64,000 nt of DNA. It comes from Defluviitalea phaphyphila (lineage in GTDB: Bacteria; Bacillota; Clostridia; Lachnospirales; Defluviitaleaceae). Shown here piece by piece: positions 46,954-53,931 of the stretch. How positions within the stretch are numbered: the stretch's first letter is position 1; every line of letters starts with the position of its first letter. The stretch is taken from positions 1 to 64,000 of the forward strand of contig NZ_JWID01000005.1 in assembly GCF_001466305.1 (NCBI RefSeq), written 5' to 3'. The position numbers and the translations under genes were made by a program. The notes under the pieces are model-generated. The model was not told where the DNA came from, did not search any database, and saw nothing but the letters and a program-made list of their open reading frames with translations.

Positions 46954-47637
46954 ATGGATAAAGATATGTTAAACGTTAATTTAAATGAATATCTTCCACT
47001 TAGGGATGTAGTATTTAATACACTTAGAAAAGCTATTTTATCTGGTGATTTAAAACCTGGGGAAAGGCTTATGGAAAAGCAATTAGCAGAAAAAATGGGA
47101 GTTAGTAGAACTCCTGTTAGAGAAGCTATAAGAAAGCTAGAATTAGAAGGTTTTGTTGTAATGATTCCAAGAAAAGGCGCCCAGGTTGCAGAAATCACCG
47201 AAAAGGATATACAAGATGTATTAGAAGTTAGAGGTGCTTTAGAAGCCTTAGCTGTAAAACTTGCTTGCAGTAAGATGAGCAAAGAAAATTTACAAGAACT
47301 AGAAAAAGCTATGAAAGGTTTTGCTGATGCAGCAGACAAAGAAGATATTAATGGAATGATAGAAAAAGATGTGGAATTCCATGATATTATTTTTAAATCT
47401 ACTAAAAATGAAAAACTTATTCAAATAGTAAACAATTTAAGAGAACAGATTCATAGATATAGGGTAGCATATTTAAAAAGTTTTGATAATTTTAGAATTA
47501 TTCAAGAAGAACATGAAGAAATTTTAAAATCTATTAAAAATAGAGATGAAAAATTAGCAGAAGAAGTAGCTATAAAACATATTAAAAACCAAGAACAAGC
47601 AGTTATTAAGTTTATAAGATCAGGAACAAATAATTAA
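46954..47637 (+). CDS. GntR-family transcriptional regulator (FCD type)
   Basis: A 227-residue regulator with an N-terminal winged helix (LAEKMGVSRTPVREAIRKLE, residues about 45-65) and a C-terminal FCD ligand-binding domain rich in helices. Three His expected for FCD metal binding seem present (EFHDIIF, EEHEEIL, IKHIKNQ). Genes of this group often follow ispE in clostridia. The effector and targets are unknown. The ATG is preceded by AGGAGAGG at the end of ispE. Confidence 0.92.
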   Translation: MDKDMLNVNLNEYLPLRDVVFNTLRKAILSGDLKPGERLMEKQLAEKMGVSRTPVREAIRKLELEGFVVMIPRKGAQVAEITEKDIQDVLEVRGALEALAVKLACSKMSKENLQELEKAMKGFADAADKEDINGMIEKDVEFHDIIFKSTKNEKLIQIVNNLREQIHRYRVAYLKSFDNFRIIQEEHEEILKSIKNRDEKLAEEVAIKHIKNQEQAVIKFIRSGTNN

Positions 47638-47671
47638 ACACCTACAGGAATTTTCCTGTAGGTGTTTTTTT
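47636..47671 (+). terminator. Terminator after the GntR gene
   Basis: A 13-bp stem AAACACCTACAGG / CCTGTAGGTGTTT around a 6-base loop, then T. Confidence 0.88.
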
Positions 47672-47729
47672 ATGAATAAAATTAAAAAAAATACAGAAAA
47701 TGAAATTAAAAGAAATAAGGAGATAAAGT

Positions 47730-47940
47730 ATGTATTGGATATTAAAAAAAATTATGAGTATTTATTCCTTGTGGACAATGATACTAATAATTATTATTGG
47801 ATTATTTACTTTTTTTAATGATTCAAAGGTTCTAGAGTCAAAAAAAAAAATTAAAAGAATCTAAATTAGCTAAAATAATTGGGATTACATATATTATAGG
47901 AGGAATAGGAGTTTTTATATTAATTAAGATATTACTTTGA
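47730..47940 (+). pseudogene. Small two-helix membrane protein gene interrupted at an A11 tract
   Basis: The frame starts at ATG 47730 behind AAGGAGAT and encodes a first hydrophobic segment (MILIIIIGLFTFF). It meets eleven A (47840-47850) and then stops at 47862-47864 after 44 residues. Removing one A joins it to a second helix (IIGITYIIGGIGVFILIKILL) and a stop at 47938-47940, just before the gerA-type operon, giving 69 residues. The full form resembles small membrane proteins (CLC_0170-like) that clostridia keep near gerA genes, as I recall it. This may be a true frameshift, transcriptional slippage on the A run, or a sequencing error. Confidence 0.6.
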
Positions 47941-47954
47941 ATAGGAGGCAAAAA

Positions 47955-49538
47955 ATGAAAAAAATTAAAAATTGGTTTAATAAATTAAAATGGGAAGATG
48001 AATTTCATGATGAAGATAATAAAGTTACTATTCCTCTTTCAAAGAATTTAGACGAAAATATAAAGAATTTAGAAATACTTTTTAAGGATTGTGGAGATTT
48101 TGTAAAAAGGAAATTTCCCATAGGAATTAACAAAGAATTAAATATGTTTATTGGATATATTGATTTAATGATTGATAGAAGGGTTATAGAGGAATCCTTA
48201 TTAGAACAGTTAATATTACAAGTTAGAAGTGTATCACCTAGTATGGATAAAATAAAATCATCTATATATGAATTTATTAGAGATGGAGGGATAGCAACTG
48301 CGGATGTAAAAGAAGTAGAAACCTTAGATGAAGCAGTTCTTGCTGTTTTATCAGGGGATACTATATTACTTATAGATGGATATGCAAAGGTTATAGTAAT
48401 TGGAACTAAAGGATGGCCTAATAGGGGAATTCAAAATCCAGATTCAGAAGTTGTTGTAAGAGGTCCTAAGGAAGCATTTAGCGAAGCACTTAGGATGAAT
48501 ACAGTTTTAATTAGAAGAAGAATAAGAGATACAAAACTTAAAGTTAAACAACTTCGAATAGGAAATAGAAGTAGAACAGATATTGCACTTATGTATATAG
48601 AAGATATTGTTAGAAAAGATATATTAGAAGAAGTGGAAAAGAGATTAAATAATTTTAAGATAGATGGAATACTAGATAGTGGAAATATAGAACAATTAAT
48701 AGAAGATAATTGGAAAAGTCCTTTTCCTCAAATCCAAGGAACTCAAAGACCGGATAAAGCTTCTTCTGCAATATTAGAAGGAAGAATTGCTATTATTGTT
48801 GATAATAGTCCTTTTGTACTTTTAATACCAACTACTATAAATAGTTTTTTTAAATCTTCAGAAGATTATTATCAAAGATGGAGTATTATGAGTTTTACAA
48901 GATTTATACGCTATATAGCTGCAATTTTTTCAGCAGCAATACCGGGGTTTTATATAGCTTTAACTGATTATCACCCATCTATGATACCTACTCCTCTTAC
49001 TATGGCTATAGCTGCTTCAAGAGAAGCAGTTCCTTTTCCCTCAGTCGTAGAAGTAGTTTTAATGGAATTAGCTTTTGAACTTCTTAGAGAAGCTGGAATA
49101 AGGCTTCCAGGGCCTATAGGTAATACCATTGGTATTGTAGGAGGTATTATTATAGGGCAAGCAGCAGTTGAAGCTAAAATAGTAAGTCCTATAGTGGTTA
49201 TTATTGTATCAGTTACAGCTATTTCTAGTTTTGCTATACCAGATGATTCTTTAACAGTAGGCTTTAGACTTATAAAATATCTTATTATTGCCTTTTCTGC
49301 AGTTCTTGGGTTATATGGATTTTTATTAGGAGGGCTTGTTGTACTTATTCATCTTGTTTCATTAAAAAGTTTTGGTATTCCTTATATGTTTCCTTACGTA
49401 TCTTCTGTAATAAATAATTATTATGATTTAAAAGATTCTATATTTAGATTGCCAATATTTATGATAAATAAAAGACCAATTTTTGCAAGACCGAATGAAA
49501 AAATAAGATTAAAAATAAAAAATAAAAAAGGGGAGTAG
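47955..49538 (+). CDS. Spore germination protein GerA family (A subunit)
   Basis: The A subunit of a nutrient germinant receptor in the spore inner membrane, 527 residues. A soluble N-terminal half (KRKFPIGINKELNMFIGYID, TVLIRRRIRDTKLKVKQLRIG) is followed by about five membrane segments starting near residue 300 (FIRYIAAIFSAAIPGFYIAL). The AIAASREAVPFPSVVEVVLMEL-type region is typical of the family. An in-frame TTG upstream is not used since AGGAGG lies 6 bases before ATG 47955. The operon continues with B and C subunits. Germinant specificity cannot be read. Confidence 0.93.
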   Translation: MKKIKNWFNKLKWEDEFHDEDNKVTIPLSKNLDENIKNLEILFKDCGDFVKRKFPIGINKELNMFIGYIDLMIDRRVIEESLLEQLILQVRSVSPSMDKIKSSIYEFIRDGGIATADVKEVETLDEAVLAVLSGDTILLIDGYAKVIVIGTKGWPNRGIQNPDSEVVVRGPKEAFSEALRMNTVLIRRRIRDTKLKVKQLRIGNRSRTDIALMYIEDIVRKDILEEVEKRLNNFKIDGILDSGNIEQLIEDNWKSPFPQIQGTQRPDKASSAILEGRIAIIVDNSPFVLLIPTTINSFFKSSEDYYQRWSIMSFTRFIRYIAAIFSAAIPGFYIALTDYHPSMIPTPLTMAIAASREAVPFPSVVEVVLMELAFELLREAGIRLPGPIGNTIGIVGGIIIGQAAVEAKIVSPIVVIIVSVTAISSFAIPDDSLTVGFRLIKYLIIAFSAVLGLYGFLLGGLVVLIHLVSLKSFGIPYMFPYVSSVINNYYDLKDSIFRLPIFMINKRPIFARPNEKIRLKIKNKKGE

Positions 49539-49547
49539 AATCACATT

Positions 49548-50654
49548 ATGTTTTCTCAAAATAATAAAATTTCCATGAGACAATTAGAAATTCTACTCTT
49601 TTTGGATTTATTTAGTACAGCAGTACTTATTTTACCTAGAAGAGCAGCAGAATTTGCTAATCAAGATGGGTGGATAATAGTAATATTATCAACATTTTTA
49701 GCTCTTTTTTATAGTTGGATTATTACATATTTAGCTAGTCGTTTTCCTAAAGATACCTTTGTAGAATTTTCTTCAAAGATTTTATCAAAACCCGTAGGGA
49801 TAATCCTTAGTTTATTTCTTTTTATAAAAATATGTTTTAATACAGCTATGGAGTTAAGGATTTTTGGAGAGTTAGTAAAACAAATTCTTCTTCCAAGAAC
49901 CCCCATAGAAGTTATCATGATTTCTATGTTGTTTGTATCTGCTTATCTTGTAAGACAAGGATATGAAGCTAGAGGAAGACTTGGAGAGATTCTTTTTTTT
50001 GTTATATTTATACCCATAATATCTATTTTATTGTTTGTTTTACCAGTTACAGATTTTAGAAATCTCAAACCGATTCTTACAACCCCCTTGTCTAAATTAT
50101 TAAAAGGAAGTTATGATTTAGGATTTACATTTTCATATATAGAATTTCTTTTAATGGTTGCTCCTCTTGTAAAAAATCCTAAAGGTTTAAAAAAGTCAGC
50201 CTTTAAAGTAATTGGAATGGTTGGTTTTATAAATGTTATTTTAGTTATTGTTACTTTAGGAGTTTTTGGCTCTATAGAAACTAAAGAGCAAATATGGCCG
50301 GTAATAGGATTAATGCAAGTGATAGAAATTCCCGGAGCTTTTTTAGAAAGGCAAGACGCATTAATGATGATTTTTTGGATTACTTCTGTATTTTCTTTAA
50401 TAAGTGCAGGATTATATTTTGTAAGTTTTATTATTACAAGAATTATGGAAGTAGAAGAACATAAATTTTTAGTTTTTCCTATGATACCTATTATATATCT
50501 TATAGCTCTTATTCCTGATAATATTGCAGAAACTTTAGATTCAATAAATATTATGAAAAATTATTTTAGAATTTCATTTTTATTCCCCATACCACTTATT
50601 CTTATAATAGTTGCTAAGATAAGAAAGTTAGGTGAAACTATTGAGAAAAAATAA
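49548..50654 (+). CDS. Spore germination protein GerB family (permease-like B subunit)
   Basis: Membrane subunit of the receptor, 368 residues and about ten helices, of the endospore germination permease (amino-acid permease-like) family. MRQLEILLFLDLFSTAVLIL at the N-terminus and LVRQGYEARGRLGEILFF in the middle fit GerAB/GerKB. It probably holds the germinant-binding site. It starts 9 bases after the A subunit with GGGAG, and overlaps the C-subunit start. Confidence 0.92.
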   Translation: MFSQNNKISMRQLEILLFLDLFSTAVLILPRRAAEFANQDGWIIVILSTFLALFYSWIITYLASRFPKDTFVEFSSKILSKPVGIILSLFLFIKICFNTAMELRIFGELVKQILLPRTPIEVIMISMLFVSAYLVRQGYEARGRLGEILFFVIFIPIISILLFVLPVTDFRNLKPILTTPLSKLLKGSYDLGFTFSYIEFLLMVAPLVKNPKGLKKSAFKVIGMVGFINVILVIVTLGVFGSIETKEQIWPVIGLMQVIEIPGAFLERQDALMMIFWITSVFSLISAGLYFVSFIITRIMEVEEHKFLVFPMIPIIYLIALIPDNIAETLDSINIMKNYFRISFLFPIPLILIIVAKIRKLGETIEKK

Positions 50655-51798
50655 AATACTTGTATTTATTATAATATTTATTTTATGTATGCTTACAGGA
50701 TGTTGGGATAGTATGAGTATTGATAGAAGAGCCTTTATAGTGGCTGTTGGTATAGATAAATTTATATTTAATGAATTAGAGGACGAACCAAGTTTAAATA
50801 AACAAATTAATAGATATGAAATGACTTTTGCTATTCCCAATCTTCAAAAAGTAGTAGGAGAACAGGGGCTTAGTGATGAACCAAGATTTGTAAAAACTAG
50901 CGTAGGACCTACATTTATTAATACTTATAAAAATTTAGAAGGACGTATTAATAAAAACGCTTATTTTGGGCATACAAAAGCGATATTATTAGGGAAAGAA
51001 CTTTTAAAAGATAAGACTTTATTAAAAGAAACTTTAGATATTTTACAAAGAAATAATCAATTTAGTAGGAGTATACCAGTAGTATCTGTTGATGGAACTG
51101 CAAAAGAAGCTCTTATGGCCAATGCAGATATGCAGCCATTAATAGGAATATATATATCAGAATTATTTGAAAATAATGAAGGAGTAAATACTAGGTTTGA
51201 ACAAAGAACCTTAGGAGATCTTTTAAAAGATTTTAAAGAAGATAAAGGAGCGATTATACCTAAATTAAGTATAGGAGAAAAAGATATAAAGATTGCAGGA
51301 GCAGCACTTGTTAAAGATTATGAACTTAAAGGATGGTTAGATGAATATGAGGTAAGGGGCATGCTCTGGATTAAAAAAAATAATCAAAGATTAGAAGTGA
51401 GCATTCCTTATAAACATTTTTATATAGCATATCATGTATCCAATTCAAAATCAAAAATTACTTTTTATAAAGAAGAGGAAGATATTGTTTGTAGGGTATT
51501 AGTAGAGGCAGAGGGGAGATTAGAAGAATATATATTAGATGAAAATATATTAGATAATAAAGAAATTGAAAAAGTTGAAGATGCAATAGAAAAAAGCATA
51601 AAAGAAGAAATTGAAAATTCAATTCATATATTACAGAAGCAATATAATACAGATGTAATTAATATTGGGAAAGAATTAGAAAGACAAGACCCTAAACAAT
51701 GGGAATTAGTTAAGGATAATTGGGATGAAGTATTTGAAAAAATGAAATTTGATATTAATGTTAGTATAAATATTAGACGTATAGGGCAAATAAAATAG
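50641..51798 (+). CDS. Spore germination lipoprotein Ger(x)C family
   Basis: The lipoprotein C subunit, 385 residues. Signal peptide with lipobox LTGC (Cys near residue 21), then the three-domain GerC body with IDRRAFIVAVGIDK, GHTKAILLGKELL and IPVVSVDGTAKEAL. It lies on the outside of the inner spore membrane and needs lipidation for activity in Bacillus. Start is TTG 50641, spaced from GGTG; a GTG at 50632 is also in frame and would add three residues. The gene overlaps the B subunit, so the three form one operon. Confidence 0.92.
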   Translation: MRKNKILVFIIIFILCMLTGCWDSMSIDRRAFIVAVGIDKFIFNELEDEPSLNKQINRYEMTFAIPNLQKVVGEQGLSDEPRFVKTSVGPTFINTYKNLEGRINKNAYFGHTKAILLGKELLKDKTLLKETLDILQRNNQFSRSIPVVSVDGTAKEALMANADMQPLIGIYISELFENNEGVNTRFEQRTLGDLLKDFKEDKGAIIPKLSIGEKDIKIAGAALVKDYELKGWLDEYEVRGMLWIKKNNQRLEVSIPYKHFYIAYHVSNSKSKITFYKEEEDIVCRVLVEAEGRLEEYILDENILDNKEIEKVEDAIEKSIKEEIENSIHILQKQYNTDVINIGKELERQDPKQWELVKDNWDEVFEKMKFDINVSINIRRIGQIK

Positions 51799-51860: not shown

Positions 51861-52550
51861 ATGAAAATATTAAATTGGATTAAAAGAGAAAAGTTTATAT
51901 TATTATCTTCTATAATTTTAGGAATAATTATTACAGGGATATTTATTAATTATTCTAAACAATATTCTGATGCAATTCAAACAAGTTTATCAAAAAGTGT
52001 AATTCGATTTCACGTTATAGCTAATAGTGATTCTGATGAGGATCAAGATATAAAAAAAGAAGTCAGAGATGCTATTTTACAAGAAATGACTCCACTTCTT
52101 TCAACATCAAATAAAATAGATATTACAAGAAATATTATTATTCAAAATATGGACAAGATAAAAGAAATAGCCGAAAATGTAATAAAAGAAAGAGGGAAAG
52201 ATTATTCTGTTGAAGTTAGTTTAGGTCCTGCAGTATTTCCTACTAAACAATATGGAGACATAGTATTTCCTACAGGAGAATATGAAGCTCTTAAAGTATC
52301 TATAGGAGAAGCTAAAGGAAAGAATTGGTGGTGTGTTATGTTTCCACCTTTGTGTTTTGTAGATGTAACTCATGGAATAGTTCCACAAGAAAATAAGGAA
52401 GATTTAAAAAAAGTTCTTAATGAAGAAGAATATAAATTAGTAACAGGTGTAAGTTATGAAGATAATATTCCTGTTAAAGTTAAATTTAAAATTGTAGAAT
52501 GGTGGCAAGAAAGAAAAATTAATAAAAAACATCAACTTGTAAAAGAATAA
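51861..52550 (+). CDS. spoIIR: Stage II sporulation protein R
   Basis: A forespore signalling protein of 229 residues, exported to the intermembrane space to trigger SpoIIGA cleavage of pro-sigma-E in the mother cell. N-terminal helix (FILLSSIILGIIITGIFI), then VIRFHVIANSDSDEDQDIK, the family's most conserved stretch, and GKNWWCVMFPPLCFVD near residue 160. GGGGGA precedes the ATG. A sigma-F-like promoter lies just upstream, and a 20-bp stem terminator follows. Confidence 0.95.
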   Translation: MKILNWIKREKFILLSSIILGIIITGIFINYSKQYSDAIQTSLSKSVIRFHVIANSDSDEDQDIKKEVRDAILQEMTPLLSTSNKIDITRNIIIQNMDKIKEIAENVIKERGKDYSVEVSLGPAVFPTKQYGDIVFPTGEYEALKVSIGEAKGKNWWCVMFPPLCFVDVTHGIVPQENKEDLKKVLNEEEYKLVTGVSYEDNIPVKVKFKIVEWWQERKINKKHQLVKE

Positions 52551-53252: not shown

Positions 53253-53931
53253 TTCTCTAGATAAGGATATAGTTGAAGTAATATTAAAATATTCTGCTCA
53301 AGATTATATAGATCTGGAGATTAAAAGTTTAAAAGAAAAAGTTAAAGATATGGAAGAGCCTTTTTTTTCTGATAATTTTAAAAGAGAAATTAATAATTTG
53401 ATTGATATAGAAAGAAAGAAAAAAAAGAAAAAAAAGATTTATAAATTAATTAAAAGAGCTATATATTTTATTATATGTATTATTGCTATACTTGTTATTG
53501 TTATGTTAGATTCTCGATATTATAAAACTAAAATTTTTAGTTATATATTTAAAGAAAATCAAGAATGTGATGAAATTATGCTAGATGAACTTCCAGAAGA
53601 ATGGGACTATTTTTATATTCCGGAATATATTCCTTCTGGTTATGTTATAAAAAATATGGAAACTACCCCTAAGTCTGTAATAATAAAATTTAAAAATGAA
53701 GAAAATGATTATTTATATTTTATACAAAATAATGATTTAGGTCCTAAACCTATGAAACATGATAAACAAATCAACGAGGTAAATGTTGGGGGAAACAAAG
53801 GTTATTTTACTAAAAATGAACAAAGGATTGATTTAATATGGTATGGTAAAGATTATAGATTTAATTTAATAGGAAAATTAGAATTAAAAGAGCTAATCAA
53901 AATGGGCGAAAGTTTAAAAATTTATAATTAA
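53242..53931 (+). CDS. Putative anti-sigma factor with DUF4367-like outer domain
   Basis: A 229-residue single-pass membrane protein. A cytoplasmic N-terminal part (about 70 residues, ending in a Lys run), one helix (AIYFIICIIAILVIVML, near residues 75-92) and an outer domain with WDYFYIPEYIPSGYVIKNME and IDLIWYGKDYRFNL, which resembles DUF4367. Genes of this design overlap ECF sigma genes and hold the sigma factor at the membrane until a signal arrives. It has no zinc-binding anti-sigma motif. The signal is unknown. Confidence 0.75.
   Translation: MNINSLDKDIVEVILKYSAQDYIDLEIKSLKEKVKDMEEPFFSDNFKREINNLIDIERKKKKKKKIYKLIKRAIYFIICIIAILVIVMLDSRYYKTKIFSYIFKENQECDEIMLDELPEEWDYFYIPEYIPSGYVIKNMETTPKSVIIKFKNEENDYLYFIQNNDLGPKPMKHDKQINEVNVGGNKGYFTKNEQRIDLIWYGKDYRFNLIGKLELKELIKMGESLKIYN

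Follow-up and report, generated by a model that had tools for sequence, protein, structure and literature searches.

The question raised by this locus is whether a small gene directly ahead of a gerA-type germinant receptor operon of Defluviitalea phaphyphila, whose reading frame is broken at a run of eleven A's (A11), is dead, is still expressed across the break, or is an intact gene that was miscounted in the assembly. The window (i.e., the whole stretch analysed, 64,000 nucleotides) belongs to a draft assembly of 76 contigs and 2,539,811 bases, in which A11 is the only 11-base A run and the longest A/T run. The preliminary description had read here a gene with a good ribosome-binding site that A11 puts out of frame, and a 69-residue protein with two membrane helices, ending 14 bases ahead of gerA, if the two frames are joined; ribosome-binding site, start codon, tract and end all agree with the sequence (Table 1), and the two helices are predicted by hydropathy peaks at residues 13-29 and 49-65 of the read-through protein, a pattern repeated in 12 relatives. 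The tract falls in the Lys-rich loop that separates both helices. As read from the sequence, an in-frame TAA at 47862-47864, 11 bases past A11, closes the first half, and the other frame stays open past the tract as far as a TGA at 47938-47940. A separate start for the second half was considered and rejected, since this half contains no ATG, GTG or TTG of its own and hence could not be translated on its own from a usual start. As it stands, we infer, the DNA would specify the one-helix form of 44 residues.

Table 1. Features of the small gene, its upstream signals and the receptor operon (window positions).
Feature	Position	Strand	Evidence or detail
Intrinsic terminator of the upstream GntR/FCD regulator gene	47636..47667	+	14-pair stem with T tail
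Conserved promoter-like block, GAATA-15 nt-CAGAAAATGA	47674..47703 (conserved stretch 47670-47705)	+	alignment
Ribosome-binding site AAGGAG	47717-47722	+	sequence; 7 nt ahead of the ATG at 47730
CLC_0170-family gene, read across the break	47730..47940	+	69 codons
CLC_0170-family gene, first half	47730..47864	+	44 residues, complete helix 1, then stop; NF042414 positions 1-28, E 4.7e-5, 23.2 bits
A11 tract	47840-47850	+	
Second half (helix 2), other frame	47851..47940	+	LKESKLAKIIGITYIIGGIGVFILIKILL-stop; NF042414 positions 31-56, E 6.3e-7, 29.2 bits
gerA-type germinant receptor subunit A	47955..49538	+	PF03323, E 7e-182; own ribosome-binding site AGGAGG at 47943-47948
gerB-type subunit (Spore_permease)	49548..50654	+	PF03845, E 2e-64
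gerC-type subunit	50632..51798	+	PF05504 and PF25198
spoIIR, 3' neighbour of the conserved cluster	51861..52550	+	PF09551, E 1e-52

Read through the break, the 69 residues match the NCBIfam profile NF042414 (CLC_0170 family; 56 positions, curated cut-off of 30 bits) with 57.1 bits and an E value of 1.2e-15, i.e., above the cut-off, and the two halves match it separately in consecutive positions. No Pfam family matched the small protein, and no mention of CLC_0170 was found in the literature searched. The D. phaphyphila copy resembles the rest of the family in sequence, in its two hydrophobic segments, in its Lys-rich loop and in its site directly upstream of gerA, and it differs in that its frame is split, whereas all other copies above the cut-off are uninterrupted. 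That is, its score is that of a family member, but the single uninterrupted frame of a member is lacking. We regard its assignment to the CLC_0170 family, and the linkage to the receptor (below), as firm. A search for a second CLC_0170 copy in the D. phaphyphila genome found none.

The upstream terminator, one of a kind with 5 sites in the window vs. 1.0 in shuffles, sets the GntR/FCD regulator gene apart from the ger operon, and between this terminator and the start of the small gene lies the promoter-like block, at the same place in eight genomes. In an alignment of the window with seven relatives from the taxonomic family, TGAATAAAA and TACANAAAATGA proved invariant at most positions. By eye, the block resembles the consensus of forespore sigma-F/sigma-G promoters. 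Because a terminator precedes the gene and the conserved block falls between terminator and start, the small gene probably heads the receptor operon and is cotranscribed with it. The genome has a second gerA-type operon (G000:C1:79159-80520, L126), which has no CLC_0170 gene upstream.

The frame break was seen in no other genome. Within the taxonomic family, each of the eight genomes searched has the gene, intact in seven and interrupted in D. phaphyphila alone (one genome represents the species), and a match to CLC_0170 is found in 36 of 196 genomes searched from the order and 65 of 391 from the class. Among about 87 family members above the cut-off from other genomes, none has an internal stop codon or the split arrangement, and the longest A run in 59 such genes of relatives is A8, always in frame. 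One relative (G002) has TCA AAA AAA TAT at the site of A11, i.e., an in-frame A7, and thus the run may have grown from lysine codons. In a scan with gerA, used because the small protein has too little conserved sequence, the nearest named genomes of the collection were metagenome bins carrying the label Candidatus Epulonipiscium. The assembly itself also holds an 1826-codon frame with a stretch of 771 residues identical to PDB 6JPH, annotated as alginate lyase; 6JPH is the structure of Dp0100, and Dp0100, a multimodular alginate lyase of 201 kDa, comes from the seaweed degrader D. phaphyphila (PMC9971899). The strain is most likely Alg1 (JWID01).

It is important to note that the gene shows no sign of decay. 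The ratio of terminal-branch lengths between the small gene and gerA is 4.0 in the D. phaphyphila lineage vs. 2.6-5.5 in six others, a test that is weak with 69 codons but in which a gene that had been neutral for much of the branch would stand out, and the divergence of the second half by codon position is similar to that among the intact relatives. Since change is not accelerated on the D. phaphyphila lineage, an old pseudogene is unlikely, and we rejected it because the ratio lies inside the range of the other lineages. The lack of decay leaves a change that is recent, one that is tolerated with expression, or one that is absent from the cell.

That a run of this length should slip, as the preliminary description had expected, agrees with both the literature and the composition of the genome. 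In a 391-kb coding sample, 14 coding A runs of at least nine were observed vs. 58.4 expected from shuffling synonymous codons, and one of at least ten vs. 18.1 expected (~18-fold depletion; Poisson P about 3e-7). Likewise, two of the seven runs of at least ten, vs. 68 of the 87 runs of nine, lie inside genes (Fisher P 0.011). Avoidance this strong implies that slippage or length errors at such runs in genes are evidently costly to the cell, although it cannot separate replication from transcription or translation slippage. Avoidance of such runs is also the sign that Baranov et al. 2005 relied on for species with slippage at them (PMC1088944). Within the window, the Lys-rich stretch of a membrane protein (53410-53437) uses AAG-interrupted codons, giving two runs of eight A's or fewer each, and longer runs are avoided.

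Published slippage rates vary greatly and make it likely, by analogy, that some full-length product would arise from A11: the A9 of T. thermophilus dnaX gives about 50% short product (PMC1088944), frameshifted poly-A genes of insect endosymbionts about 30% full-length transcripts (PMC3017870), and ribosomes slide on A11 (PMC4363877). E. coli RNA polymerase makes mostly deletions on A11 in vitro and little or no deletion in vivo on the shorter A runs tested (PMC6260861). The locus resembles the 'pseudo-pseudogenes' described by Baranov et al. 2005 (PMC1088944) and in Blochmannia/Buchnera (PMC3017870) in having an A run at the junction of two frames, one-frame homologs and an undecayed downstream part, and it differs from them in being a germination gene of a free-living thermophilic sporeformer (D. 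phaphyphila produces ethanol at 60 C; PMC4818487). Among the marks of rescue by slippage, the sequence shows a run of at least nine A/T where the two frames meet, with homologs that keep a single frame, and avoidance of such runs in genes; the mark of programmed use, a split arrangement conserved in at least two different homologs, was not found. Programmed recoding by a downstream RNA structure was rejected as well, no such structure being found after A11 (z +1.1).

Bacillus receptors have small two-helix D-subunits, and in B. megaterium loss of GerUD raises the apparent Km for germinants three- to fourfold, one helix alone being sufficient to restore it (PMC4661057). The D-subunits (GerUD, GerKD) and the CLC_0170 protein are both small two-helix membrane proteins encoded next to a gerA-type operon; read through the break, the latter has 69 residues, near the 70-80 or so of a D-subunit, and it shares with D-subunits two predicted helices and a gene adjoining a receptor operon. 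The likeness is one of layout only: we rejected homology to GerUD (here equated, by length and predicted helices, with the 76-codon gene next to gerUA on pBM700), as the CLC_0170 profile shows no sequence relation to it (hhalign probability 0.5%). The GerUD loop faces outside, and a D-subunit would have its ends in the core, whereas the positive charges of the CLC_0170 protein lie in its loop and not at its ends (4-8 K/R in the loop vs. 0-3 at either end), which would suggest the opposite orientation. By analogy of layout, the CLC_0170 protein perhaps works like a D-subunit, and, since a single helix suffices for GerUD, the shortened 44-residue protein might retain function.

Taken together, the frame break is best read as one event, confined to this genome and to its only run of such length, either a slip that is recent and leaky or a miscounted run. 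To the former, a recently gained out-of-frame length in a Lys-codon A run of the CLC_0170 gene with leaky rescue by slippage, we would give about an even chance. Under this hypothesis, an in-frame run would recently have lengthened to A11 and broken the frame, and RNA polymerase or the ribosome would slip on A11 to give mixed products, the full two-helix form among them; the gene would then be leaky, not dead. The break would be cheap if the protein, like B. megaterium GerUD, modulates the receptor as a partner and can do without one helix. However, GerUD is matched in layout and not in sequence, the in vivo results with E. coli polymerase on shorter A runs (PMC6260861) make the efficiency of rescue uncertain, and a miscount in sequencing or assembly, with the strain's run in frame and the gene ordinary and intact, would give the same picture, the lack of decay included. 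Such a miscount is a serious possibility, if in our view somewhat short of probable: A11, as the longest run of the genome, is the likeliest one to be miscounted, the assembly is a draft, and no relative has a broken copy. On the other hand, of the genome's A/T runs of at least nine (A11, six 10-base and about 87 9-base runs), 70 fall in coding sequence, where the 69 other than A11 keep the frame, and 24 are intergenic; no other gene was found broken at a run of at least eight in a 437-kb sample, where the other candidates for a homopolymer frame change were ordinary gene boundaries. The assembly is therefore not generally prone to indels and is sound at nine. Just one of those in-frame coding runs is as long as ten, which leaves room for a miscount at eleven; this only other coding run of ten A's (G000:C76:42094-42103) lies in a 137-codon frame.

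Two further explanations take the break as real and carry far less weight. Simple recent loss of function, in which the small protein is unneeded and the gene has newly begun to decay, could draw on the fact that most genomes of the order lack the family, which makes it dispensable in many members, and on the second receptor operon that does without it. We nevertheless consider it unlikely, given that the gene is kept throughout the taxonomic family and the promoter-like block is conserved, that there is no extra change on the D. phaphyphila branch, and that slippage at A11 makes full silence unlikely. Less probable still is an evolved switch, in which the A run would be kept long for phase variation or for programmed slippage into two forms and would thereby spread germination behaviour. 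The length of A11 suits replication as well as transcription slippage, the tract is placed between both helices, and loss of GerUD in B. megaterium shifts germinant affinity several-fold (PMC4661057). Yet in the relatives the split is absent and no A run exceeds A8, so that conservation, by which programmed use is usually recognised, is lacking; no RNA structure follows the run, and the genome avoids long runs instead of keeping them. With A11 and the split both private to the D. phaphyphila genome, nothing supports an evolved phase switch, and the on/off switching between cells that had been suggested for this tract is not supported. It is also very unlikely that one- and two-helix forms of a receptor partner, made through slippage at A11, spread germinant sensitivity among genetically identical spores.

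The event itself is an ordinary one, and the identification of the gene is the useful part. If real, the frame break would offer a natural test of whether one helix is sufficient and whether slippage can sustain a gene in a free-living thermophile. For the family, the gerX1 clusters of C. botulinum, preceded by an unnamed gene and followed by a stage II sporulation gene (PMC5083711), show the same gene order as D. phaphyphila (CLC_0170-gerA-gerB-gerC-spoIIR); since the upstream family is unnamed in that study, we infer the equivalence from layout and family name. The unnamed CLC_0170 family gains a home, accompanying gerA-type receptors across Clostridia, and by analogy its proteins look like the clostridial counterpart of the Bacillus D-subunits. 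Among the 58 distinct fetched members with enough sequence, gerA lies directly downstream in 52, and different genes follow in the other six. At three loci from one family of the class (L158, L168 and L170), a CLC_0170-like gene is followed by a small gene and then by a leucyl-tRNA synthetase-like gene, not by gerA.
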